29,620 nt of DNA from positions 1 to 29,620 of the forward strand of contig QZKU01000102.1 of assembly GCA_003598085.1 (NCBI GenBank). Reading direction: 5' to 3'. Every line of letters begins with the position of its first letter. Position 1 is the first letter of the stretch. Shown here piece after piece: positions 9,849 to 26,059 of the stretch. The notes under the pieces were generated by a model that saw nothing but the letters and a program-made list of their open reading frames with translations, searched no databases and was not told where the DNA came from. The translations under genes and the position numbers were made by a program. This DNA comes from Candidatus Abyssobacteria bacterium SURF_5 (GTDB lineage: Bacteria; Abyssobacteria; SURF-5).

Positions 9849-10820
9849 CTAATGGTTAACCTTACAGCGTCTTCGCTTCTTCGAACGGACGTAACTGGCG
9901 GGAGGCTCGTGAACTGCAGGAAAAGCGTCCATCCAGGAAAGGTCTTTCCCGATTACAAGCTCTTCCATTTTCGCATGATGAGTATTTGTCATTGGCATGA
10001 GCCGCATTTGTAACTTGTGCTCGCGGGCCAGCGCCTTGACTTCATCTGCATTATCGTATGTGATGAGAAAATCTCCTTTCAACTTCTCGCAGATCGAGAA
10101 CAACTTTTCGTGGTCCAGTTCGAAATAACGATAGAGGCGTTTACCTGCCTTCTTTCCGCCTGCCGTGTAAGGTGGGTCAATAAAGAACACCACATCGAGT
10201 GCGGATGCAAATTCTTGTAAGACATCCAGGCCATCGGAGCATCTGAACTCGATTCGATCCGCGACCAGTTCAAGATTCTCGAAGCGTTTGGCAAGCGTGC
10301 GGGGATACCATCTCGAAAGAACGCCTTTGCCGTTCTCGCCATATTTTAGAAACCCTGATCCTTCGGCAAGTATTCCGCCGTGGAAAGTGCGATTTTTAAG
10401 GATCGTCTGAAAAGCGCGCTCCCGTGCTGACCGGCGCTTCTTCGAAATTTCCGTAATTACCGCCTCTTTTGTAAGGTCGAATTCCAGAATGCGCTTTGCG
10501 AGCCATCGCGCCTCGCCGGCGACGATAGACTGCCACACGGCAGCGATTTCCTCGTCCAGTTCTACCATAAGTACAGTATCGACCAGATTTTCAAAAAGAG
10601 CGGTCAAACTAATTATGCCGCCGCCAGCGAAAGGTTCAACGAGCAGGCGAGGCCGTAGGCTCTTATTTTTCAGCCATTCCCGGAAAGTTGGCACAAACCA
10701 CGTCTTGCCACCCGGATAGCGAAAAGGGCTTCTCTGTGGGACCGACGCCACATTCACCGGTTTCGGTGAAGCTTTTTCTTCAAAATCCGCAAACAGAAAT
10801 GTCTGTCGAGCGTCTCGCAT
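9849..10820 (-). CDS. D12-class (Dam-like) adenine-specific DNA methyltransferase
   Basis: The enzyme transfers a methyl group from S-adenosylmethionine to N6 of adenine and should protect host DNA from the endonuclease encoded just upstream. The 323-residue protein has the D12 motif order: FRYPGGK (33-39), the SAM-binding PFAGGG (63-68), an acidic strand end (ELDEEIAA) and the catalytic DPPY (215-218). The later YDNADEVKALA segment is also typical. The open frame extends 51 codons further, overlapping the endonuclease gene. The ATG at 10820 is preferred because it follows the endonuclease stop by one base and has an AAAGG site upstream. The target-recognition insert lies around residues 120-170. 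Confidence 0.92.
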   Translation of the reverse strand: MRDARQTFLFADFEEKASPKPVNVASVPQRSPFRYPGGKTWFVPTFREWLKNKSLRPRLLVEPFAGGGIISLTALFENLVDTVLMVELDEEIAAVWQSIVAGEARWLAKRILEFDLTKEAVITEISKKRRSARERAFQTILKNRTFHGGILAEGSGFLKYGENGKGVLSRWYPRTLAKRFENLELVADRIEFRCSDGLDVLQEFASALDVVFFIDPPYTAGGKKAGKRLYRYFELDHEKLFSICEKLKGDFLITYDNADEVKALAREHKLQMRLMPMTNTHHAKMEELVIGKDLSWMDAFPAVHEPPASYVRSKKRRRCKVNH

Positions 10821-10821
10821 T

Positions 10822-11697
10822 TCAGAATGGCCTTTCAATAGATCTGTTATTGGGTGGTGTCTCAAGTTGCTCGTCCAGTTTTTCCTGAAGAAGCTTGATG
10901 AAATGCTCCACATCACCCACCGCCGGAGTTGTAATTGTGGCAAGAGAGGCGCCAAATTGAGTGAATACCTCATCCACCTTTGTCAGCGCGTATCGATCGG
11001 GATCGCATTCGCTCTTTCTCAGTTCCAAGTCATAGACGAACCAGGCGATATCAGCCTTATCCTTTGGAACCCGTTTAAGCTTCGGCAATGTTTCAAAGAA
11101 TGATCTATTCAAGGCAACGCTAATTTTCTTTCCCCAGCTGTTTAGAATGCCGCCTTTGAAGAGAAGCTGAGGAGCCAGTCTCTTTCGCGAAGAAGACAGA
11201 TAATCAGGTCGCGGGTAGTTCGGCTGATCCGACCAATCCATATTTATGCGTTGTGCCGGGTTGGTCATATAGTGCTCAAAAGGTTCGCGAACATTGCCAG
11301 ATATGTACACCGCCTGCACCTCAAGAGCGCCAAAGTCATATACTTTTCCGTTCCGGTCATATGCAACGAGGACTACATCTATATTACCGGCTGATTTGCT
11401 GTTTGCATCATTCAGGCGAACTTCCACAAGTGAACTCCACTGGGTTCCTTCGGCAAAGAAAAAAGATGCCGCATCATCCGTTATCAGCCAATCCTCGCGA
11501 AAACGGACAGGGCATGTAATGACCGGCCCACTATCATAATAGATGCTGCACACCCCCAAAGGGTCCTTTGCCTTATCCTTCGTGCAATTCGGCACCTTGT
11601 TGTTGAACGGGCAAAGCTTCTTTGTGCGGTACCGAACGGCCCTTTCAGAGGTATCAGAAATGAGATATCCGAACACTTCCGATAAAGGTTGTTTCAT
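10822..11697 (-). CDS. NotI-family restriction endonuclease
   Basis: The 291-residue protein shares the layout I know from NotI. An N-terminal metal-binding region carries cysteines C29, C38, C50 and C62 (contexts KLCPFNN, VPNCTK, LGVCS, ITCPVRF), equivalent to the Cys4 iron site of NotI. It is followed by a PD-(D/E)xK-type core in which the usual lysine is replaced: D107 in GNIDVVLV, then E126 and Q128 in LEVQAV. The EXQ variant and the following YISGNVREPF are hallmarks of that family. The gene is first in an operon with an adenine methylase. NotI itself recognises an A-free site in its GC-only octamer, so this enzyme probably cuts a different sequence. The start is the first ATG after a consensus promoter; the ribosome binding site is weak. 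Confidence 0.85.
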   Translation of the reverse strand: MKQPLSEVFGYLISDTSERAVRYRTKKLCPFNNKVPNCTKDKAKDPLGVCSIYYDSGPVITCPVRFREDWLITDDAASFFFAEGTQWSSLVEVRLNDANSKSAGNIDVVLVAYDRNGKVYDFGALEVQAVYISGNVREPFEHYMTNPAQRINMDWSDQPNYPRPDYLSSSRKRLAPQLLFKGGILNSWGKKISVALNRSFFETLPKLKRVPKDKADIAWFVYDLELRKSECDPDRYALTKVDEVFTQFGASLATITTPAVGDVEHFIKLLQEKLDEQLETPPNNRSIERPF

Positions 11698-12896: not shown

Positions 12897-12963
12897 CTTT
12901 AGGAATGTGCGTCAATAAAATGAGTTTAGAAGCTGGTCGCGGGGAATCAAGAGAGGAGTGCGC

Positions 12964-13266
12964 ATGGCCGCGCAGATTCAGATTGAGAGAGAAAAAATCG
13001 CTGCTTTTTGCGAGAAATGGAAGATCAAAGAATTCGTTCTGTTCGGCTCTGTTTTGCGAGAGGATTTTGGGCCTGACAGCGATATAGATGTGCTCATAAG
13101 TTTCTCCGATGATGCGGATTGGAGCCTGTACGATTGGATCGATATGATAGATGAATTGAAGGCCATTTTTGGCCGTGAGGTGGACCTTGTTGAGAAAGGG
13201 ACAATTCGTAATCCCTTCCGCCGCCACGCAATCATGAATAATAAAGAGATCGTCTATGCAGCCTGA
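12964..13266 (+). CDS. second MNT-type nucleotidyltransferase, without a canonical HEPN gene after it
   Basis: The 100-residue protein is a minimal nucleotidyltransferase with the intact signature G28-S29, D40 and D42 (context SDIDVLISF) and D74 in EVDLVEKG. It resembles the antitoxin at 578-877 through residue 45. I chose the ATG at 12964 because AGAGGAG lies six bases upstream; a GTG two codons earlier overlaps that site. The usual HEPN gene does not follow. A tiny frame, MQPEYP then stop, overlaps its 3' end where a HEPN start would be expected, and no RX4HXY protein is present before the convergent gene. Its partner may be lost or may be the HEPN-ankyrin gene just upstream. Confidence 0.85.
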   Translation: MAAQIQIEREKIAAFCEKWKIKEFVLFGSVLREDFGPDSDIDVLISFSDDADWSLYDWIDMIDELKAIFGREVDLVEKGTIRNPFRRHAIMNNKEIVYAA

Positions 13267-14951: not shown

Positions 14952-14980
14952 TTGACAACATCTCAGAAACATGTTATAAA
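14952..14980 (+). promoter_or_regulatory. strong sigma70 promoter of the respiratory operon
   Basis: TTGACA (14952-14957) and TATAAA (14975-14980) are exactly 17 bases apart. The predicted start near 14987 leaves a leader of about 145 bases before the first gene. It is the only strong promoter I see ahead of the fourteen same-strand genes that follow. Confidence 0.75.
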
Positions 14981-15131: not shown

Positions 15132-17090
15132 TTGGCTGAGATTCTTTTTGACAGTTGGTTTGTGAATCCCTGCGGAAAACTCGTTGACGAGCAATCCGCG
15201 GAAAAAATCCCATCGGCTCACCAGAAGTTTTTCCAGAACGGCAAATGCCCGCCGGACCTGAAGGCGGTGATCGGCTGGGGCGGCATCGTCCTTTTGAACA
15301 AGGATGTGTGCATCGTCCAGTTGATGGTGAAGTTCTTCGAGCAGGTCCAGGCGAAATCCTGCGGCAGGTGTTTTCCGTGCCGAGTCGGCTCATGCGTGAT
15401 ATTGGATACGCTGCGCCGGATCGCGGCTGGAGAAGGCCGCGCAGCCGACCTCGACCTTTTGAAGTCGCTCGCCGCCGATGTCCGCAATGGGGCTTTGTGC
15501 GGCTTCGGCATCGCGATGGAGAAACCGCTCGTTGACGCCCTCACCAATTTCAAGGCCGAGTTCGAGGCCCATCTCAACGGCAAGAAATGCGAGGCGCCCG
15601 CGACCGAATCGATCATGATCGCGCCGTGCAATTTCGGGTGTCCCGCCACGACCGATGCCGCCCGTTATATAGAGCTTATTCGAGAACAAAAATTCAACCA
15701 ATCCATTGACGTTGCGCGCGCGCCCAATCCATTCGCGGCGATTTGCGGCCGCGCCTGCTTCCATCCCTGTGAGAAACTGTGCAAGCGCAGCAATGTCGAC
15801 GAGCCGATCTCGATTGCCTATTTGAAGCGAGCCGTATCCGATTACGAAAAAAAGCTGATCAAGCAGAAGCAGTTCCGCCTTAAGCCCCACAAATCAACCG
15901 GGGAAAAGGGGAAAGTAGCCGTCATCGGGTCGGGTCCGGCGGGCGCCACGTGCGCGCGCGAACTCGCCTCGTGGGATTATGACGTGACTATTTTCGAGGC
16001 CGCTCCTGTTGTCGGCGGCACGACGCATCTGGGTATTCCCGCATATCGGTTGCCGCGCGACATCGTCAACGGCGAAATCGAGCAGGTGCAGGAATACGGC
16101 GTCACGGTGAAGACCAACAGCGCGCTCGGCAGAGATTTTTCGCTGCAGGACTTGTTCGACCAGGGCTTCAAGGCCGTCTTCCTCGCCATCGGCGCGATGA
16201 AGGGGAAAAAACTCGGCATACCCGGCGAGGACGAGAACGAAGGCGTGCTGGACGCGATGGAATTCTTGCGCCGCGTCAACCTCGGCGACGAGACGCGCCT
16301 GGGCAGGAAGGTAATCGTCATCGGCGGCGGCAACTCGGCCGTTGACTGCGCGCGCGTGCCGCTGCATCTCGGGTATGAAGACGTCAATATCGTCTACCGG
16401 CGCACCCGCAAGGAGATGCCGGCGAGCCCGTGGGAAGTCGAAGAAGCCGAACACGAAGGCGTGAAACTGCATTTTCTGGCCGCGCCCGTGCGCGTGATCG
16501 GGAAAAACGGGAAAGTGGTCGGTCTGGAATGCATTCGCATGGAACTCGGCGAACCCGACGCCAGCGGCCGGCGGCGTCCGGTCGAGGTGAAGGGCTCGGA
16601 GTTTACCATAGATACCGATTTGATCATAGCTGCGGTGAGTCAGGCGCCGGACTTGGACTACTTCAGGAAAATACAGGGACTCGGCATAAGCAAGCGCGAA
16701 ACGTTCGAGGTGGACCCCGACACGTTGCAGACGACGCTCCCCGGCGTTTTTGCGGGCGGCGACGTTGCAACCGGACCGCAATCGGTCATCGCGGCGGTAC
16801 AGTCCGGCCTGCAGGCGGCGGTCTCGATCGACAAATATTTGAACGGCGGCACGCACGCAGAATTCGAGCGGCTGCAGCGCCTGCGCGCAATCGTCAACGC
16901 GCTCGGCCCTGTTGACAAATCCGAATACTGCGCCGGCACAAGCGGTCTGAAGCGGGCGCAGATGCCCGCGCTCCCGCCGAAGGAGCGCATCGGCAACCTC
17001 GACGAGGTCGAGCTTGGCTTCAGTGAACAGGCCGCGGCGGCCGAGGCCGAACGCTGTATGAGATGTTACCGGATCATTATGACCGCCTGA
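15132..17090 (+). CDS. NuoF C-terminal domain fused to GltD-like FAD/NAD(P) oxidoreductase (SfrB-like NADPH oxidoreductase beta subunit)
   Basis: The 652-residue protein probably oxidises NADPH or NADH and passes electrons to the NuoG-like protein encoded next. Residues about 45-150 match only the C-terminal part of NuoF, with the N3 [4Fe-4S] ligands C77, C80, C83 and C123 (SCGRCFPCRVG; LCGFG). The FMN/NADH domain of NuoF is missing. The rest is a GltD-type flavoprotein: a cysteine-rich helical domain (C166, C170, C205, C209, C213, C217), an FAD motif GSGPAG (266-271), an NAD(P) motif IGGGNSA (near 396), and AGGDVATGPQSVIAA. A terminal CMRC motif closes it. The start is a TTG with GGGAGA upstream. 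From memory this architecture equals Geobacter SfrB. Confidence 0.85.
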   Translation: MAEILFDSWFVNPCGKLVDEQSAEKIPSAHQKFFQNGKCPPDLKAVIGWGGIVLLNKDVCIVQLMVKFFEQVQAKSCGRCFPCRVGSCVILDTLRRIAAGEGRAADLDLLKSLAADVRNGALCGFGIAMEKPLVDALTNFKAEFEAHLNGKKCEAPATESIMIAPCNFGCPATTDAARYIELIREQKFNQSIDVARAPNPFAAICGRACFHPCEKLCKRSNVDEPISIAYLKRAVSDYEKKLIKQKQFRLKPHKSTGEKGKVAVIGSGPAGATCARELASWDYDVTIFEAAPVVGGTTHLGIPAYRLPRDIVNGEIEQVQEYGVTVKTNSALGRDFSLQDLFDQGFKAVFLAIGAMKGKKLGIPGEDENEGVLDAMEFLRRVNLGDETRLGRKVIVIGGGNSAVDCARVPLHLGYEDVNIVYRRTRKEMPASPWEVEEAEHEGVKLHFLAAPVRVIGKNGKVVGLECIRMELGEPDASGRRRPVEVKGSEFTIDTDLIIAAVSQAPDLDYFRKIQGLGISKRETFEVDPDTLQTTLPGVFAGGDVATGPQSVIAAVQSGLQAAVSIDKYLNGGTHAEFERLQRLRAIVNALGPVDKSEYCAGTSGLKRAQMPALPPKERIGNLDEVELGFSEQAAAAEAERCMRCYRIIMTA

Positions 17091-17125
17091 CCCGAGGACA
17101 GAGACGGAGCGAGAAGAATCTTCCG

Positions 17126-19690
17126 ATGATTACCCTGACGATAAACGAACAAAAGGTGAGCGTCCCTGAGGGGACCACTATTCTAAAGGCGGCGCAATCC
17201 GCCGGCATCTATATTCCCACGCTGTGCTATCACGCGAAGCTGTCGCCCATCGGCGCGTGCAGGATCTGTCTGGTCGAGGTTGACGGCGAGAAACGGCCGG
17301 TAGCCTCCTGCGACACGCAAGTGCGCGAGGGCATGGTTGTTCGCACCGACAGCGAAGAAATCATCCGGCAGCGCAAACAAATGCTGCAGTTCGTGCTGTT
17401 GAATCATCCGCTTGATTGCCCGGTCTGCGATAAGGCGGGCGAATGTCTGGTCCAGGATATAACGGTCAATATGTCCGTTCTGGAACAGCGGTTCACGGCG
17501 CCGAAACCGGAGAAAACGAAAGAAGAGCTTTCTCCTCTGCTCGATATCTGGCACACACGCTGCATCATGTGCGGGCGATGCGTCCAAGTCTGCAAGGAAA
17601 TCCAGGGAGCGCGCGCGATCGATTACGTCGTCAGGGCGGGCTACACCTCGAAGGTGGGCCCGACCGAAAGCGGCGGGTATGCGTGCGAGAGCTGCTCACA
17701 GTGCCTGTCGGTCTGCCCGGTCGGCGCTATCATCGATAACACATTCCGCTACAGCGCGCGCGCGTGGCAACTGAAAAAGGTCAATTCCGTTTGCACGTTC
17801 TGCGGCGTCGGGTGCCAGTACGAGCTCAATGTCCGCAACAACAAGGTTTTTCGCGTTACCGTCGGCGATTTCCAGGGGCACAACCGGGGGAACCTGTGCT
17901 CGGCGGGCAGATTCGGCAAAGACGCGATCCACAGCGAAGCGCGGCTGAGCGCCCCCGCCGTTCGCAAAAACGGCAGCCTCCAGTCCGTCTCCTGGGACGA
18001 GGCGCTGGATTACGCAGCGCAGAGGCTCAAGGAGATTGTGTCGTCGCACGACGGCGACAGTGTCGCCGGACTGGCTTCGGCTCGATGCACGAACGAAGCG
18101 CTCTTCGCGTTCCAACGTCTGATGAGACAGGGTCTTGGCTCGAACAGAGTGGATACGCCGGCGCATCTTTCCAATCATGCAATCATTCATGCCATGACCG
18201 GCGTCTACGGGATTCCCGCGCCGACCGCGACGCTGTCCGATCTGGACGAAGCCGACGCGATCCTGGTTGTCGATTCAAACATCATCACGACACATCCGGT
18301 GGCCGCTCTCGAACTCCTGCGGGTGCATAATAGCGGGACGGCGAAAGTGCTGGTGATCGGCCATCGCTCCAACAAGCTGACCACTCAATGCGCGCAATAT
18401 GCGAGGACTTCGCCCGGCGCAGAGACGGCATTATTAAATTGCCTGACCAACATTCTGCTTTCTCAAAACGACCTCAACAAGGAATCGCTCGAGAAGCTGG
18501 ATGGTTATGATAAGCTGAAGCTGCATGTGATGAAATATTCGCTCGGGGATACGGCGACGCGCACGGGGATCGATCCTGACATCATCTCCGATATGGCAAA
18601 TTCGATTTCCGCATCGAAGAAATTTCTGCTGGTTCTCGCGCCCGGCAGCCTGCAATCGGCGCTGAACGCATCGGTTGCAAGTGCGGCGATCAATGTTGCC
18701 GTGCTGAAAGGCGGCAAGGTGCTCTCGCTGCTTTGCGAAGGGAATGCGCAGGGGGCGCTTGATCTGGGGATTTCGCCCGATTTCCTGCCCGGCTATAAAG
18801 AGACGGCGACCGCGCAAAACGGATCCGGCGTTCCGAACATCCGTCAGGCCATGGAGTCTGGCGACATCAAGGCGTTGTACCTTATGGGGAGCGACATCCA
18901 GAAGGAGATGTCGCTGTTCGGGATCGGGATGGATGCGCTCCGTGAGCTGGAACTGCTGGTGGTGCAAGATGTATTTGCAGGGCCGGTAGCCGACCTGGCG
19001 CACGTCGTATTGCCGGCGAGCAGTTTTGCGGAGCGGGAAGGCTCTTACACCAACGCCTGCAGGATCGTTCAGCATAGCTCGAAGGCGATCGAGCCGATCG
19101 AGCGGAGCCGGAGCGACCTGTCGATAATTTCACAACTGGGGCAGCGGCTTGGGCTCGCTTCGATGGAGACGGTTGAGGCGGCGCGCGTTCAAATCGCGCA
19201 AAATGTGCCGATTTATGATTTTCTGACGGATAAGGCCCGCCTTGCCAAAGGCGAGCCCTGGCAATATGAAAAAGTGGCCCCGGCCGGACGGCACAAGCTG
19301 TCGCTGGTGGTTGAAGGCCGGCCGGCGGCTGATGACACCTATTCTTTTGTGCTGACATTTGATAGCATGTTGCATTATGGCGGCTCGGTCTCGCTGCATT
19401 CGCGCAGCCTGGCGAAACTGCGGGTGGACGAGGCGATCGAAATCAGCGAAGACGACGCGAAGGCGCTGGGCGTCGAGAACGGCGCGCCGGTTGTGGTCAA
19501 AACGAAAAACGGCGGCTCGGTCAAGCTGCCTGCTCTCATCAGCGAGGAATTACCTCCCCGCGTGGTCAGCGTGCCCTCGCATAATTATCGGGCGGTCCAG
19601 GCGCTGATCGGCAAGCTCGACGCTTCGGTGTTGCGTGATGAGGAAGGCGCGCCGGCGTGGGTCGCCAGCGTCATGCCGGCAAAGGGATAA
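17126..19690 (+). CDS. nuoG: NuoG/SfrA-like iron-sulfur subunit with inactive molybdopterin-oxidoreductase-type domain
   Basis: The 854-residue protein carries an electron wire. It has an N-terminal [2Fe-2S] domain (C34, C45, C48, C62) and a His-ligated cluster (H94, C98, C101, C107). Two ferredoxin-type [4Fe-4S] sets follow (C146, C149, C152, C156; C187, C190, C193, C197), then a further [4Fe-4S] set C223, C226, C230, C258 (CTFCGVGC; NLCSAGRFG). The large C-terminal domain is formate-dehydrogenase-like, but the catalytic Cys/Sec position reads Ser (S349, in VDTPAHLSNH), so formate oxidation is unlikely. The open frame extends 21 codons upstream; the ATG at 17126 opens the ferredoxin fold directly. 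It lies 35 bases after the flavoprotein gene. SfrA-like NADPH oxidoreductase alpha subunit is the main alternative name. Confidence 0.88.
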   Translation: MITLTINEQKVSVPEGTTILKAAQSAGIYIPTLCYHAKLSPIGACRICLVEVDGEKRPVASCDTQVREGMVVRTDSEEIIRQRKQMLQFVLLNHPLDCPVCDKAGECLVQDITVNMSVLEQRFTAPKPEKTKEELSPLLDIWHTRCIMCGRCVQVCKEIQGARAIDYVVRAGYTSKVGPTESGGYACESCSQCLSVCPVGAIIDNTFRYSARAWQLKKVNSVCTFCGVGCQYELNVRNNKVFRVTVGDFQGHNRGNLCSAGRFGKDAIHSEARLSAPAVRKNGSLQSVSWDEALDYAAQRLKEIVSSHDGDSVAGLASARCTNEALFAFQRLMRQGLGSNRVDTPAHLSNHAIIHAMTGVYGIPAPTATLSDLDEADAILVVDSNIITTHPVAALELLRVHNSGTAKVLVIGHRSNKLTTQCAQYARTSPGAETALLNCLTNILLSQNDLNKESLEKLDGYDKLKLHVMKYSLGDTATRTGIDPDIISDMANSISASKKFLLVLAPGSLQSALNASVASAAINVAVLKGGKVLSLLCEGNAQGALDLGISPDFLPGYKETATAQNGSGVPNIRQAMESGDIKALYLMGSDIQKEMSLFGIGMDALRELELLVVQDVFAGPVADLAHVVLPASSFAEREGSYTNACRIVQHSSKAIEPIERSRSDLSIISQLGQRLGLASMETVEAARVQIAQNVPIYDFLTDKARLAKGEPWQYEKVAPAGRHKLSLVVEGRPAADDTYSFVLTFDSMLHYGGSVSLHSRSLAKLRVDEAIEISEDDAKALGVENGAPVVVKTKNGGSVKLPALISEELPPRVVSVPSHNYRAVQALIGKLDASVLRDEEGAPAWVASVMPAKG

Positions 19691-19698
19691 AAGGGATT

Positions 19699-20232
19699 AT
19701 GCTGTCATTCCAGATTTTGGCGATTATCACCGTGGTTTCGGCCTTCATGGTGGTCACGCGCCGCAATCCGATGCACTCGGCGCTGTGGCTGCTGGTGACG
19801 TTCTTCGCATTGGCCGGCCTCTATCTTCTGATGAATGCCGAGTTCGTCGCCGCGATCCAGATAATCATCTACGCGGGCGGCATCCTGGTCCTGTATATTT
19901 TCGTCATCATGTTTGTCGACCTCTCGAAGGATTCGACGCTGCGCAAAGCTTTCCATAAGCCGGGCCAAGTCGTATTCGCGGCCGTTTTCTCGGCGCTGAT
20001 CATGGTTGTTGTTGTCGCGGTCAGCCTGACCGGCATCGAGCCGTTTGCAATCGGAGAACCCGCGGCGGCGGCAACCGATTCAACGAAAGCGTTTGCGAAG
20101 GATTTATTCCTGCAGTACCTCTATCCGTTCGAGATAGCTTCGATCCTGCTTCTGGTGGCGATGATCGGATCGGTCATCCTGGCTCGGCGAAGCACGACAT
20201 CCGTTTCCGCAAGGGAGAAAGAACTTCAATGA
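19699..20232 (+). CDS. nuoJ: NADH-quinone oxidoreductase subunit J
   Basis: NuoJ is a membrane subunit at the junction of the complex I quinone module and the pump arm. The 177-residue protein has five hydrophobic segments and the conserved stretch NPMHSALWLLVTFFALAGLY, then EFVAAIQIIIYAGGILVLYI with the pi-bulge tyrosine-glycine region. The ATG at 19699 is preferred over a longer frame because AAAAGGG lies just upstream and the protein then opens with the first membrane helix. It is eight bases after nuoG and overlaps nuoK by four bases (ATGA). The usual upstream neighbours nuoH and nuoI are missing. Confidence 0.95.
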   Translation: MLSFQILAIITVVSAFMVVTRRNPMHSALWLLVTFFALAGLYLLMNAEFVAAIQIIIYAGGILVLYIFVIMFVDLSKDSTLRKAFHKPGQVVFAAVFSALIMVVVVAVSLTGIEPFAIGEPAAAATDSTKAFAKDLFLQYLYPFEIASILLLVAMIGSVILARRSTTSVSAREKELQ

Positions 20233-20531
20233 TTCCGCTGCAGCAAACAATGATTCTCGGTGCCGTCCTGTTCGGCATCGGGATGCTGGGTTTCCTCACG
20301 AGGCGTAATCTGATCGTAATATTCATGTCAATGGAACTCATGCTCAACGCGGTCAACCTGAACCTGATCGCCTTTTCCAACTATCACCATTCGGCGCAGG
20401 GGCAGGTTTTCGCCGTTTTCGTCATAACGGTCGCCGCGGCCGAGGCGGCCACGGGACTTGCCATATTGATAGCTTTATACCGATTGTACCGGAGCGTCAA
20501 CATAGACGACGCGAACACGCTGAAATGGTGA
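20229..20531 (+). CDS. nuoK: NADH-quinone oxidoreductase subunit K
   Basis: At 100 residues with three transmembrane helices, this is a standard NuoK (MrpC-like) subunit. Both membrane-buried glutamates needed for proton transfer are present: E36 in FMSMELMLNAVNL and E72 in VAAAEAATGLA. Its ATG overlaps the nuoJ stop codon, indicating coupled translation, and nuoL follows after 16 bases. Confidence 0.97.
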   Translation: MIPLQQTMILGAVLFGIGMLGFLTRRNLIVIFMSMELMLNAVNLNLIAFSNYHHSAQGQVFAVFVITVAAAEAATGLAILIALYRLYRSVNIDDANTLKW

Positions 20532-20547
20532 TTGAATAGGACACGCG

Positions 20548-22662
20548 ATGGAACAAATACTGAATTACATCTGGCTGATTCCGCTGTTTCCTCTGATCGG
20601 TTTTGTGGTTATCGGCGTGCTCGGCCGCCCGTTGTTCAAAGGAAAGACGGAACTTGTTCCCGCGATAATCGGATGCACGACGATTTTCCTCTCCTTTGTC
20701 GTTTCAGTTCTCAGCGTGGTTGCGCTTTACCGGTACATCGAGCCGAATGCAGTAGGCTCGCGCGTCTTCACGCGCGAGCTGTTCACGTGGATCGAAATGG
20801 GCGCGTTCAAGGTGCCGTTCAAGCTTCACCTGGACGCGCTTTCGTCCGTCATGATCCTGGTGGTCACCGGCGTCGGTTTCCTCATTCACGTCTATTCGTA
20901 CGGCTACATGCACAAGGACCCGAGCCAGTACCGGTTCTTTGCTTACATGAATCTGTTCACGTGCGCGATGCTCATCCTGGTGCTCGGCGGCAATTTCCTG
21001 CTGATGTTCATCGGGTGGGAGGGCGTCGGCCTGTGCTCGTATCTGCTCATCGGGTTCTGGTTCGAGAAGGATTCGGCCGCGACGGCCGGGAAAAAGGCGT
21101 TCGTCACCAACCGTGTCGGCGACTTCGGGTTTGTGCTCGGCATGCTGCTGATGTTTTCGGTCTTCGGCACGCTCGATTATGAGACGGTTTTCGCGGAGGC
21201 CCCGCACAGATTGGCGGTGGGAGGCGGGATAGTCACCGCGATAACGATGCTGCTCTTCGTCGGCGCGACCGGAAAATCAGCGCAGATACCGCTGTATGTG
21301 TGGCTGCCCGACGCGATGGAAGGCCCCACGCCTACCAGCGCTCTCATCCACGCCGCCACGATGGTCACGTCCGGTATCTACATGGTTTCGCGGGCCAACG
21401 TGCTGTATTCGATGGCGCCTGCAAGCCTGATCCTTGTGGCCGCCGTTGGCGCGGGCACGGCTTTCTTCGCCGGCTCTATCGGTCTTGCGCAAAACGATAT
21501 CAAGAAGGTTCTGGCGTATTCGACGGTGAGCCAGCTCGGATACATGCTGCTCGGCTGCGGAGTCGCGGCCTATTTTGCCGGAATATTTCACCTGATGACA
21601 CACGCATTCTTCAAGGCGCTGCTGTTCCTTGGCGCCGGCAGCGTGATCCACGGCATGAGTGGCGACCAAGACATGCGCAACATGGGCGGCCTGAGGAAAT
21701 ACATGCCGCACACGTGTTGGACGTTCATGATCGCCTATCTCGCAATCGCCGGGATTCCTCCGTTCGCCGGATTCTTCAGCAAAGACGAGATTCTGTGGAA
21801 GGCGTTCACCTACAATTCGCCGATCCTCGGGCCGATGTGGGGGAAGTTTTTGTGGGCGATCGGGGCCGCCACCGCGGCAATGACGGCTTTCTACATGACG
21901 CGCCTCGTGTCTCTGACGTTTTTCGGCGAATCCCGCGTTTCGCACGAGGCGGAGCATCACCTGCATGAGTCGCCGGGCGCAATGATTTATCCGCTCATGG
22001 GGCTGGCCGTCCTCTCGCTGATCGGCGGATGGGTGGGCATCCCGGCCGCTCTTGGCGGCGGAAACCATTTCCATCATTTTCTGGCGCCCGTGCTTGATCA
22101 GGCTTCGCACGGCGCGCAGGGAGCGCATGCGGCCGCAACCGCGGGCCTGGCGTATGCCGCGGAAGTGACCGGTCACGGGGGCGGCGCAGAATCCTCGCAT
22201 GGCCTCGAGCTGTTCATGATGGTGGTTTCAGTGGCGCTCGCGGGTATCGGCATCGGCATCGGGTATTTCTTCTATATCAAGAATCCGAACATGCCGCAGT
22301 TGCTCGCATACAAGTTCCAGGGGCTTCACAAGGCGCTGGTGAATAAGTGGTACGTGGACGAGATATACGAGTTCGCCGTCATCAACGCGACGAAGCAGTT
22401 CGCCAACCTGCTGTGCTGGTTTGACGCCCATATCATCGACGGCATCGTGAACGGAGCCGCATACGCGACCAAAGCGTTCAGTTCCGGCAGCATGTTGTTC
22501 GACGGCACCGTCGTCGACGGGCTGGTGAATCTGACGGGCCGCATTGTGGAAGTGGCAAGTGGAATGATGCGGCGCGTGCAGACCGGCTATGCCCACAGTT
22601 ACGCCCTGGTTATGGCAATCGGGACGTTTGTGCTTTTAAGCATCTATATCCTCTTACGGTAA
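20548..22662 (+). CDS. nuoL: NADH-quinone oxidoreductase subunit L
   Basis: NuoL is the distal antiporter-like proton channel of complex I. The 704-residue protein has the key charged residues: E158 in FIGWEGVGLCSYLL and K243 in GATGKSAQIPLYVWLPDAMEG. The conserved histidine-rich segment SALIHAATMVTSGIYM is also present. The C-terminal half includes the lateral helix region and final anchor helix (YALVMAIGTFVLLSIYILL). It is longer than the E. coli protein by roughly 90 residues. A His/Ala/Gly-rich loop at about 505-550 accounts for part of the extra length. An AGGA site precedes the ATG, and nuoM follows after 55 bases. Confidence 0.97.
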   Translation: MEQILNYIWLIPLFPLIGFVVIGVLGRPLFKGKTELVPAIIGCTTIFLSFVVSVLSVVALYRYIEPNAVGSRVFTRELFTWIEMGAFKVPFKLHLDALSSVMILVVTGVGFLIHVYSYGYMHKDPSQYRFFAYMNLFTCAMLILVLGGNFLLMFIGWEGVGLCSYLLIGFWFEKDSAATAGKKAFVTNRVGDFGFVLGMLLMFSVFGTLDYETVFAEAPHRLAVGGGIVTAITMLLFVGATGKSAQIPLYVWLPDAMEGPTPTSALIHAATMVTSGIYMVSRANVLYSMAPASLILVAAVGAGTAFFAGSIGLAQNDIKKVLAYSTVSQLGYMLLGCGVAAYFAGIFHLMTHAFFKALLFLGAGSVIHGMSGDQDMRNMGGLRKYMPHTCWTFMIAYLAIAGIPPFAGFFSKDEILWKAFTYNSPILGPMWGKFLWAIGAATAAMTAFYMTRLVSLTFFGESRVSHEAEHHLHESPGAMIYPLMGLAVLSLIGGWVGIPAALGGGNHFHHFLAPVLDQASHGAQGAHAAATAGLAYAAEVTGHGGGAESSHGLELFMMVVSVALAGIGIGIGYFFYIKNPNMPQLLAYKFQGLHKALVNKWYVDEIYEFAVINATKQFANLLCWFDAHIIDGIVNGAAYATKAFSSGSMLFDGTVVDGLVNLTGRIVEVASGMMRRVQTGYAHSYALVMAIGTFVLLSIYILLR

Positions 22663-22717
22663 GCTGAACGATATATGTGGCATATTTTGCATGCTCTAGA
22701 GAAGGGAGAATAGAGGA

Positions 22718-24502
22718 GTGACTCCGGAAATCCTGACGTATTCAGAGATGGGATTGCAGGTGCCGATCCTCTCGATCATCACCTATATTCCCGTCGTCGG
22801 CGCACTGATCATCATGCTGTTCCTGCGCCGGGACACCACGATTAAATGGTTTGCAAACGTAGTTGTGCTCGTCGACTTCATTGTCTCGCTGCGGCTGGTC
22901 TCGGGCTTTGTCAAAGACCGGCATGTGCTCCAGTTCGTCGAGCGCGCCGACTGGATCCAGAGCCTCGGAGTGCAGTATTTCTTCGGGGTTGACGGAATCA
23001 GTATCCTGCTGGTAATGCTGACGACGTTCCTGGGAGTGCTGGCGGTGCTTTCGTCATGGTCGGCAATCCACGAGCGCGTCAAAGAGTATTACATCTTCAT
23101 GCTGCTCTTGCAGACCGGCATGCTCGGAGTCTTCTTCTCGCTCGATTTCTTCCTGTTCTACGTTTTCTGGGAAGTGATGCTGGTGCCGATGTACTTCCTC
23201 ATCGGCGTGTGGGGCGGCCCGCGCAAGCTGTATGCGGCCATCAAGTTCTTCCTCTACACGCTGGCGGGCAGCGTGCTGATGCTGCTGGCCATTCTGGCGC
23301 TGTGGTTTATCCACTACCATCAGACGGGCGAGCGCAGCTTCGAAATCATGAGGTTCTACAACCTCGACATTCCGTTCCACATCCAGCGGTGGCTGTTCTT
23401 GGCCTTCTTCGTCGGCTTCGCGATCAAGGTGCCGATGTTTCCGTTCCACACGTGGTTGCCCGACGCGCACGTGGAGGCGCCGACGGCGGGCAGCGTCATC
23501 CTGGCAGGCGTCTTGCTGAAAATGGGCACCTACGGCTTCGTGCGCTTCAGCCTGCCGCTGTTCCCGGAAGCGATGATGTGGTTCCTGCCGTACGGGATCA
23601 CGCTGGCGGTTATCGGCATTGTCTACGGCGCGCTCACGGCGATGATGCAGCCGGACATGAAGAAGCTGGTCGCCTACTCGAGCGTGAGCCACCTCGGCTT
23701 TGTGATGCTGGGCGTGTTCGCGCTCAATCAGCAGGGCATCGAGGGCGGCATCCTCCAAATGATCAACCACGGGCTGAGCACCGGGGCATTGTTCTTGGCC
23801 GTCGGCCTCATTTACGAACGGCGGCACACCCGCATGATCAAGGACTTCGGCGGGCTGAGCAAGCAGATGCCGGTCTATGCGGCGATGTTCATGATCGTGA
23901 CGCTTTCCTCGATCGGGTTGCCGGGGCTCAATGGGTTCATCGGCGAATTCACGATTCTGGTTGGCGCGTTCAAGGCGCTGTGGATGAAATCGGTCGTCGT
24001 GAACGAGGCTATCTCGACGCTGATGGTGCTTCTGGCCACCAGCGGCATTGTTCTCGGCGCAGCCTACATGTTGTGGATGTTCCAGCGCGTGATGTTCGGA
24101 AAGCTCGAGAATCCGGAAAACATGAAGCTCAAGGACCTCAACCTCCGCGAGGCGATGACGCTGATTCCGATCATTTTCCTCTGCTTCTGGATCGGCGTGT
24201 ATCCGAAGCCGTTCCTCAAATTTATGGAAGCGGCTGTCGCGAATACCGTCGAGATCACGAATCCGGTCGCGGCGGCGGAAGAGAAGGCGCTGATGCAGGA
24301 GCAACTGGCTCGCGAGGAGGCGAAGGCTTCCGGCCAGGCGCATGCGATGCCGGCCCATTCGGAACACGCCGACGAGGGCGAACCGGTTCATGGTTCAGCA
24401 GGCGAAGGCGCGCGCCAACTGGAAGAGGCATCGGGTGAGGTCATGCCGGTCCAGGCCGATTCGCATGCTTCCGCTCACGAGTCCGGCCACCCGGTACACT
24501 AG
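22718..24502 (+). CDS. nuoM: NADH-quinone oxidoreductase subunit M with His/Glu-rich C-terminal tail
   Basis: NuoM is the middle antiporter-like pump subunit. E152 (FYVFWEVMLVPMYFLIG) and K237 (FAIKVPMFPFHTWLPDAH) are the buried charges of the proton path. The VEAPTAGSVILAGVLLKMG signature follows. The protein is 594 residues long: after the usual end near residue 507 comes a hydrophilic, Ala/Glu-rich tail of about 87 residues with eight histidines. The start is a GTG at 22718 with GGGAG upstream; an in-frame ATG at 22748 is an alternative. nuoN follows after 12 bases. Confidence 0.96.
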   Translation: MTPEILTYSEMGLQVPILSIITYIPVVGALIIMLFLRRDTTIKWFANVVVLVDFIVSLRLVSGFVKDRHVLQFVERADWIQSLGVQYFFGVDGISILLVMLTTFLGVLAVLSSWSAIHERVKEYYIFMLLLQTGMLGVFFSLDFFLFYVFWEVMLVPMYFLIGVWGGPRKLYAAIKFFLYTLAGSVLMLLAILALWFIHYHQTGERSFEIMRFYNLDIPFHIQRWLFLAFFVGFAIKVPMFPFHTWLPDAHVEAPTAGSVILAGVLLKMGTYGFVRFSLPLFPEAMMWFLPYGITLAVIGIVYGALTAMMQPDMKKLVAYSSVSHLGFVMLGVFALNQQGIEGGILQMINHGLSTGALFLAVGLIYERRHTRMIKDFGGLSKQMPVYAAMFMIVTLSSIGLPGLNGFIGEFTILVGAFKALWMKSVVVNEAISTLMVLLATSGIVLGAAYMLWMFQRVMFGKLENPENMKLKDLNLREAMTLIPIIFLCFWIGVYPKPFLKFMEAAVANTVEITNPVAAAEEKALMQEQLAREEAKASGQAHAMPAHSEHADEGEPVHGSAGEGARQLEEASGEVMPVQADSHASAHESGHPVH

Positions 24503-24514
24503 TGGAGTGAATAG

Positions 24515-26059
24515 ATGCAACTACCGGCAATAGATATTTCAGCTATCGCGCCCGAGGTGGTAATTGCGTTAACAGGGCTTCTCATCCTGGCAGCCGACAT
24601 TTTCCTCAAGCCACGGAGGGCAATGTCACTGGCTGTGCTGGCGCTCGCCGGCCTGTTCATCTCGCTCCTGATGACGGGCGCGATCTGGAGCAGGGACGAG
24701 ACCGCATTCAGCGGGATGGTCGCCGTCGATACCTATTCGCAGTTTTTCAAGATCATCTTCATTCTTTCCGCGGCGTTCACCGTTCTCATGTCGCCGCGCT
24801 ACCTGAAACTTTTCAACATCAGCATGGGTGAATACCTCGAGCTGATCCTGTTCGCGACGCTGGGAATGATGGTGATGGTGGCAGGGAACGACCTGCTCAC
24901 CATCTACATCGGGCTCGAGCTGATGGCGATCTCGATCTATCTGATGGCGGGGTTCCAGCGGCAAAGCCCGCGCTCGAGCGAAGCCTCGATCAAGTATTTT
25001 CTGCTCGGCTCGTTCGCGTCCGCGATCCTGCTGTACGGCATATCGTTCTTCTACGGGATCACCAGCACCACCAGCCTCCCCGGGATCGCGGAATATCTCG
25101 ATTTCACCAAGAGCGCGGAATCGGGCAAACAGATAACCCAGATGCTCAATCCGAGCCTGATCACGCTTTCGCTGGTGTTAATGACCGTCGGGTTCTCTTT
25201 TAAAATCGCCGCTGTTCCTTTCCACATGTGGACTCCGGACGTATACGAGGGAGCGCCGACACCGCTGACGGCGTTCATGTCGGTCGGCCCGAAGGTGGCG
25301 GGTTTTGCGGTTATCATGCGCGTGTATCTGACCACGTTCAACACGCTGGTGCTCGACTGGACGCAGCTGTTCATGTTATTGTCGATCCTGACAATGATCG
25401 TGGGCAACGTGGTCGCGGTAGCCCAGAGCAACATCAAGCGCATGCTCGCGTACTCGAGCATTGCGCACGCCGGCTACCTGCTGATCGGCGTCGTTTCGGC
25501 CGGATCGGCGATGGAGGTCACATCCCGGATTACCCTGCGCGGTGCCCTGATTTCGGAGTCGATAATCAGCGTGATGGTGTACCTGTTCGCCTATATGTTC
25601 ATGAACCTGGGCACATTCGCGATCGTGATCACGTTGGCGCGGGAAGGCGACCCGCACGAATCGTTGAGCGATTATGCGGGACTGGCGAAACGAAGGCCGC
25701 TGACCGCCATGCTGATGGCGATTCTGCTGCTCTCGCTTGCCGGCATTCCGCCGACCTTCGGATTTGTGGGGAAACTGTTCATCTTCAAAGCGGCTATTGA
25801 TACGGAAAACACGCAACTGGCCGTTATCGGCGTGATCAACAGCGTGATCGCTGCGTTTTACTATATTCGCGTTATCGTATACATGTACATGAAAGAGTCG
25901 GAAGCGGGAGCCGTCGCAGAAGGGGATATGGCCGGGTCAACCATGTACGCGGCTGTTACTGCATCGCTGTTCACGATTGTTTTCGGCGTTGCCCCTGGAA
26001 CGGTTATCGGATTGGCCCGAGACACCATCGCGCCAATGCTGCAGCGGATACTCGGGTAA
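24515..26059 (+). CDS. nuoN: NADH-quinone oxidoreductase subunit N
   Basis: NuoN is the third antiporter-like pump subunit of complex I. At 514 residues it is slightly longer than most relatives but complete. The buried charges are E135 (TIYIGLELMAISIYLMAG) and K230 (FSFKIAAVPFHMWTPDVYEG). The APTPLTAFMSVGPKVAGFAV and NIKRMLAYSSIAHAGYLLIG stretches are characteristic of the family. A GTGGAGTGA site precedes the ATG. It is the last complex I gene here; the ATP synthase genes begin 110 bases later on the same strand with no clear terminator between. Confidence 0.97.
   Translation: MQLPAIDISAIAPEVVIALTGLLILAADIFLKPRRAMSLAVLALAGLFISLLMTGAIWSRDETAFSGMVAVDTYSQFFKIIFILSAAFTVLMSPRYLKLFNISMGEYLELILFATLGMMVMVAGNDLLTIYIGLELMAISIYLMAGFQRQSPRSSEASIKYFLLGSFASAILLYGISFFYGITSTTSLPGIAEYLDFTKSAESGKQITQMLNPSLITLSLVLMTVGFSFKIAAVPFHMWTPDVYEGAPTPLTAFMSVGPKVAGFAVIMRVYLTTFNTLVLDWTQLFMLLSILTMIVGNVVAVAQSNIKRMLAYSSIAHAGYLLIGVVSAGSAMEVTSRITLRGALISESIISVMVYLFAYMFMNLGTFAIVITLAREGDPHESLSDYAGLAKRRPLTAMLMAILLLSLAGIPPTFGFVGKLFIFKAAIDTENTQLAVIGVINSVIAAFYYIRVIVYMYMKESEAGAVAEGDMAGSTMYAAVTASLFTIVFGVAPGTVIGLARDTIAPMLQRILG

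Follow-up and report, generated by a model that had tools for sequence, protein, structure and literature searches.

The block of an sfrB-like gene, nuoG and nuoJKLMN in this genome of Candidatus Abyssobacteria is no chance juxtaposition, but half of an SfrB-type complex I whose genes are split over two loci. The other half, a cassette of nuoABCDHI, is encoded on a second contig. Comparison with related operons makes it quite probable that the two halves form a single 13-subunit complex I, in which an SfrB-like protein replaces both NuoE and NuoF. The fusion protein at the head of the block is most likely the electron-input subunit of this complex.

Gene content of the locus

The window, the whole stretch of DNA analysed here, is an entire contig (C102) of 29,620 bp from a 5.1 Mb genome that is 98.5% complete. 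Between 15132 and 26059 it carries an sfrB-like gene, a nuoG-like gene, nuoJ, nuoK, nuoL, nuoM and nuoN in this order, with short intergenic gaps. The features are as follows:

14952..14980, plus strand: putative promoter (TTGACA-17-TATAAA) 5′ of the sfrB-like gene, from sequence inspection
15132..17090, plus strand: sfrB-like gene, 652 aa, assigned by Pfam/NCBIfam, PDB sequence matches, conserved cysteines and YRR motif, and an AF2 model with Foldseek
17126..19690, plus strand: nuoG-like gene, likely start at 17126 (MITLTINEQ); listed open reading frame 17063-19690
19702..20232, plus strand: nuoJ, likely start at 19702; listed open reading frame 19657-20232
20229..20531, plus strand: nuoK, family profile match; overlaps nuoJ by 4 bp
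20548..22662, plus strand: nuoL, family profile match
22718..24502, plus strand: nuoM, family profile match
24515..26059, plus strand: nuoN, family profile match

The promoter-like sequence is unlisted by the motif scan, the rule of which demands a T as the last base. The sfrB-like gene starts with TTG, and GGGAGAAG lies just 5′ of this start. The named genomes nearest to this one are the Candidatus Abyssobacteria MAG SURF_17 (82% identity for the sfrB-like gene) and a Poribacteria-labelled MAG (77%). From 26170, 3′ of nuoN, the contig continues with an F-type ATP synthase operon, and the same arrangement is present in two relatives of the phylum.

The first-pass annotation had described a fusion gene and a NuoG-like gene placed directly 5′ of nuoJKLMN with short spacings and one overlap, and the genes, their order and the nuoJ/nuoK overlap bear this out. 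It had also noted that the NuoF FMN/NADH domain, nuoE, nuoA-D, nuoH and nuoI are missing at the cluster. Domain and gene searches agree, as none of nuoA-D, nuoE, nuoH and nuoI is found in the full 29,620-bp window.

Elsewhere in the window, the minus strand at 9849-11697 encodes a NotI-family restriction endonuclease adjoining a D12-class adenine methyltransferase, a restriction-modification pair. By eye, an MNT-type nucleotidyltransferase gene with an overlapping HepT-like partner (232-907) is likely a toxin-antitoxin pair, and a solitary relative of the MNT-type nucleotidyltransferases resides at 12958-13266.

The SfrB-like and NuoG-like proteins

In the SfrB-like protein, the C-terminal N3 4Fe-4S domain of NuoF is joined to an FAD and NAD(P)H domain of the GltD/NfnL type. 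Pfam places the NuoF iron-sulfur domain (PF10589) at residues 65-147, Fer4_20 at 164-241 and Pyr_redox_2 at 261-559, and detects no PF01512, the FMN/NADH domain of NuoF, in the protein. The alignment retains all four N3 cysteines (77, 80, 83 and 123), the GltD-type cluster cysteines (166, 170, 209, 213, 217, 642 and 645) are kept, and the motifs for FAD and for the nucleotide (GGGNSAVDCARVPLHLGYEDVNIVYRRTRKEMPA) are intact. The AF2 model (pLDDT 85, pTM 0.86) is good and has as its best Foldseek matches the GltD-type chains of NfnABC, StnABC and Nfn/NfnL, at 37-42% identity, and of glutamate synthase.

The single feature that bears on the substrate is the intact nucleotide motif, and it indicates that the protein probably uses NADPH. 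The 2′-phosphate of NADPH is held, in GltD, NfnL and dihydropyrimidine dehydrogenase, by arginines that follow the tyrosine. These arginines belong to a YRR motif that is invariant across 22 aligned relatives, which is consistent with NADPH.

Inspection of the alignment finds the ligands of clusters N1b, N5, N4 and N7 in the NuoG-like protein. It has, in addition, one complete 4Fe-4S motif that the NuoG of this genome's canonical operon lacks.

The missing subunits and the conserved split

It had been suggested in the first-pass annotation that the other nuo genes may be encoded elsewhere, and this proved correct. A search of the source genome with the NuoD family returned two loci. The first, on contig C42, is a free-standing cassette of nuoA-B-C-D-H-I that ends after nuoI and comprises exactly the subunits that the window lacks. 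The second, on contig C115, is a canonical operon in the order A-B-CD-E-F-G-H-I-J-K-L and onward (inspected as far as nuoL), which includes nuoE and nuoF. The set of 11 core subunits is therefore complete, with J, K, L, M and N in the window and A, B, C, D, H and I on C42. The iron-sulfur ligands of N3, N1b, N4, N5, N6a/b and N2 are retained, as judged by inspection of sequences and alignments.

Neither the window cluster nor the C42 cassette contains nuoE or a NuoF with PF01512; within the genome these are confined to the C115 operon and other enzymes. The NuoF iron-sulfur domain occurs in four copies: in the window, on C115, in a 631-aa HydB-type frame and in a 1042-aa NuoF-GltD fusion. The last of these (contig C127; L235:7191-9830) joins a full NuoF to a GltD domain, is flanked by genes for a NuoE-like protein and a HydA-type hydrogenase, and is ~42% identical to the window SfrB.

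The two halves, sfrB-G-JKLMN and nuoABCDHI, reside at separate loci in 3/3 genomes of the phylum, one from each of three genera. In two relatives (G001 and G002) the nuoABCDHI cassette is internal to its contig, with genes flanking it. A contig-edge or assembly artefact was considered as the cause of the split and rejected: with the split repeated in three genera and the cassette inside contigs, an assembly or binning error is unlikely. In another genome (G007), a GltD-like reading frame is located 5′ of nuoA-B-C-D-H at a contig end (L233:1-5001).

Contiguous operons in Nitrospirae and exchange of the input module

A comparison of gene order across relatives, as the first-pass annotation had proposed, adds to the sfrB-G-JKLMN order kept in three genera a set of contiguous 13-gene operons in Nitrospirae. 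In the Nitrospirae MAG group around locus L017, an sfrB homologue is present in 16/24 genomes. Six loci (L158, L159, L162, L163, L165 and L171) have the uninterrupted order sfrB-G-A-B-C-D-H-I-J-K-L-M-N, and the remaining sfrB loci are broken by contig ends or have altered nuoL/M copies. At L161, L166, L167 and L168 the nuoL/M-like genes after nuoK are altered or duplicated, possibly giving an extra pump subunit. Most of the Nitrospirae genomes with an sfrB-type operon encode a single full-length NuoD.

The NuoB and NuoD proteins of Nitrospirae are 62-68% and 52-58% identical, respectively, to those of the C42 cassette; the corresponding values for the cassette versus the canonical operon of its own genome are 48% and 39%. 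A tree of NuoB+D+H, based on the C42 genes, places the second complex of the phylum beside the Nitrospirae operons with a support of 100, and a tree of NuoK+L, based on the window genes, does so with a support of 96. The trees of the two halves are congruent, in that the quinone-module genes and the pump genes independently fall beside the Nitrospirae operon.

In two genomes of this group (G019 and G021), the orthologous operon starts not with sfrB but with a NuoF fused to a thioredoxin-like 2Fe-2S domain. G019 nests beside the sfrB-bearing G020 in both trees, with supports of 99 (NuoB+D+H) and 97 (NuoK+L). As NuoF stands in place of sfrB on an orthologous core, the input modules have been exchanged in place. 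Of all the evidence that the SfrB-like protein takes over the job of NuoE/NuoF, the swap in G019 and G021 is the strongest.

SfrB in Campylobacterota and in other contexts

Dozens of loci of the Sulfurimonas, Sulfurovum and Sulfuricurvum type have, on contigs of sufficient length, the order nuoA-B-C-D-sfrB-G-G-H-I-J-K-L-M. Here sfrB lies between nuoD and nuoG, the position of nuoE/F. The tandem NuoG pair of these operons (L035-L094) has full cluster motifs in both copies. In one Campylobacterota family an SfrB-like protein is present in 75/81 genomes, and 53 of these 75 are without PF01512. The link between SfrB presence and PF01512 absence in this family is no more than suggestive (Fisher p 0.08), and PF01512 is an imperfect marker of NuoF that HydB/HoxF-type frames match too. 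RnfC is also expected to match it. The third N3 cysteine is missing from Campylobacterota SfrB in 10/11 aligned rows, with a glycine instead, and the nucleotide motif is degenerate. The enzyme of these bacteria may therefore differ.

SfrB-like genes are also found directly 5′ of another gene at L020, L026, L027, L030, L031, L034 and L050. In the four that were aligned (L020, L026, L030 and L034), this partner is a HydA-type [FeFe]-hydrogenase with the motif MPCTAKKE, and these loci were rejected as stand-alone SfrAB. They likely encode a hydrogenase that is linked to NADPH through the type of input module seen in the SfrB-type complex I. With SfrB-like proteins encoded beside [FeFe]-hydrogenase genes, the module is not confined to complex I, which fits an NAD(P)H module of general, plug-in use. 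In a Kuenenia MAG (L028:7406-10558), a GltD-type FAD/4Fe-4S protein is encoded between the genes of a Rieske protein and a cytochrome b, i.e., beside a bc complex.

The first-pass annotation had reasoned that a second, complete nuoA-N operon in this genome, together with SfrAB homologues that stand alone elsewhere, would reduce the arrangement to a chance juxtaposition. Taken literally, this is what is found, with the canonical operon on C115 and SfrB homologues outside nuo operons. Chance juxtaposition nonetheless does not follow, because sfrB-G-ABCDHI-JKLMN is contiguous elsewhere and sfrB occupies the nuoE/F position in Campylobacterota.

Origin of the SfrB-NuoG module

Approximately unbiased (AU) tests treat the input module differently from the core. 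In the SfrB tree, a joint clade of the SfrB of the phylum and that of Nitrospirae is rejected (p 0.0019; 0.021 with Campylobacterota added). In the NuoG tree, the p value for a joint clade with Nitrospirae is 0.0105, and 0.30 with Campylobacterota added. For both proteins the hypotheses were chosen after viewing the first tree, and long branches are present. These tests disfavour a common ancestor with the Nitrospirae operons from which SfrB and the core were simply inherited together; as the SfrB and NuoG trees stand apart from Nitrospirae, co-inheritance of input module and core is unsupported. This suggests that the phylum acquired its SfrB-NuoG pair independently and added it to a core that otherwise appears sister to that of Nitrospirae.

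Proposed electron path

The assembly of the complex, its cofactor, electron path, NADPH preference, direction and ion pumping are predicted from the sequences as follows. The SfrB-like protein would oxidise NAD(P)H, probably NADPH, at the GltD-type FAD. Single electrons would then pass from the FAD through two GltD-type 4Fe-4S clusters to the retained N3 and on to NuoG, where N1b, N5, N4 and the extra 4Fe-4S cluster would form the next leg. From there they would reach NuoI (N6a and N6b), NuoB (N2) and finally the quinone, with ions pumped by NuoH and NuoJKLMN. Complex I in general can run backwards, and in reverse the ion gradient and quinol would drive the formation of NADPH. A second complex I is not forced by need, because the genome also has a canonical one.

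The idea of a complex I variant fed by an FAD-based module, put forward in the first-pass annotation, is well supported by the comparative genomics (split halves, contiguous operons and NuoF swap). Its overall interpretation is supported in part, for this variant and for the genes encoded elsewhere, with the NADPH preference suggested by sequence motifs; what it overlooked is that the block is half of a split whose counterpart is a conserved six-gene cassette.

Alternative explanations

It could be argued that SfrB-NuoG is a soluble NADPH oxidoreductase that shares only a promoter with nuoJKLMN, with NuoABCDHI and NuoJKLMN making up an 11-subunit complex that takes its electrons from ferredoxin or a different donor. 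Nuo complexes of 11 subunits without NuoEFG exist (PMC5736913), a canonical complex I is already present in the genome, and SfrB-like proteins are encoded outside nuo operons beside HydA-type genes. However, sfrB is linked to nuo genes in 3/3 genomes of the phylum, a purely genomic linkage that speaks against a stand-alone enzyme, and the sfrB-G-JKLMN order persists across the three genera. The contiguous 13-gene operons, the NuoF that occupies the position of sfrB in an orthologous operon, and the Campylobacterota sfrB between nuoD and nuoG in genomes mostly without any NuoF domain also oppose it, and this explanation is considered unlikely. A still smaller chance, barely above dismissal, is given to formate dehydrogenase as the identity of the NuoG-like protein, with the block as a whole acting as a formate:quinone or formate:NADP+ enzyme. 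The best PDB matches of the NuoG-like protein are formate dehydrogenases and it scores 365 bits with the Fdh-alpha profile, but the NuoG profile (TIGR01973) scores higher at 425 bits. The alignment also lacks the active-site Cys/Sec-His of formate dehydrogenases, with DTPAHLSNH at the site, and this identity was rejected on that ground.

A further proposal is that the input module is electron-bifurcating, such that the GltD-type FAD splits the electrons of NADPH between ferredoxin and quinone, or that the extra clusters pass ferredoxin electrons in or out. The solved structures closest to the SfrB-like protein by sequence and structure are the bifurcating NfnABC, StnABC and Nfn, its FAD is homologous to that of NfnL/Stn, and the extra 4Fe-4S cluster of NuoG recalls HydA and FdhA. 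The homologous GltD of glutamate synthase, on the other hand, shares the NfnL-type FAD domain and does not bifurcate, and no second flavin subunit (NfnA-, StnB- or NuoF-like) is encoded in the window cluster or the C42 cassette. Also on the side of this proposal, a ferredoxin-reducing role has been put forward for Nitrospina NUO-2, with a NuoF2 without FMN and a NuoG2 with an extra 4Fe-4S cluster (PMC3578206). On balance, bifurcation is very unlikely, and the 13-subunit complex I remains the preferred reading.

Relation to known systems

With respiratory complex I (NDH-1, NuoA-N), the proposed complex shares the 11 core subunits ABCDHIJKLMN, NuoG and the iron-sulfur ligands from N3 to N2. It differs in that one GltD-type FAD protein stands for NuoE and the FMN/NADH domain of NuoF, in its two loci and in the extra 4Fe-4S cluster of NuoG. 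SfrAB of Geobacter, described as a soluble NADPH oxidoreductase, has by description the same NuoF C-terminus with GltD domain and an adjoining NuoG/FDH-alpha-like protein, whereas here the pair is linked to complex I genes. The Nfn, Stn and NfnABC transhydrogenases have a homologous GltD-type FAD/NADP domain but are soluble and contain a second flavin subunit.

Going by published descriptions, input subunits are also replaced in the Nuo of Epsilonproteobacteria, where NuoE/F give way to NuoX/NuoY (reviewed in PMC6682613), thought to take flavodoxin or ferredoxin (PMC6682613, PMC4585668), in contrast to the 652-aa GltD-type FAD protein found here. NUO-2 of Nitrospina and Kuenenia, likewise compared by description, has a NuoF2 that lacks FMN but contains N3 and an NADH-type domain, a NuoG2 with an extra 4Fe-4S cluster and, in Nitrospina, dispersed nuo genes; unlike the present system, its NuoF2 is said to have extra 2Fe-2S and 4Fe-4S ferredoxin-like clusters, and nuoE is present (PMC3578206). 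No account of a GltD-type input subunit on complex I was found in the openly accessible papers searched.

Implications

Textbook complex I is tied to NADH, and replacement of its electron input would alter which fuel the pump burns or makes. If the complex is fed by NADPH or makes it, no transhydrogenase would be needed to connect respiration with the biosynthetic redox pool, and such a link would matter for autotrophs such as Sulfurimonas. It may be, as a somewhat speculative generalisation, that the input slot of complex I is exchangeable and that related 11-subunit cores acquired a GltD-type NADPH module on two or more occasions. In several phyla this would yield an ion-pumping NADPH:quinone oxidoreductase or, in reverse, a gradient-driven NADP+ reductase, and the FAD might also bifurcate. 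The pair of Nitrospirae operons that bear either SfrB or NuoF on orthologous cores is a natural experiment on the exchange of input modules, through which the modular-evolution view of complex I becomes directly testable.
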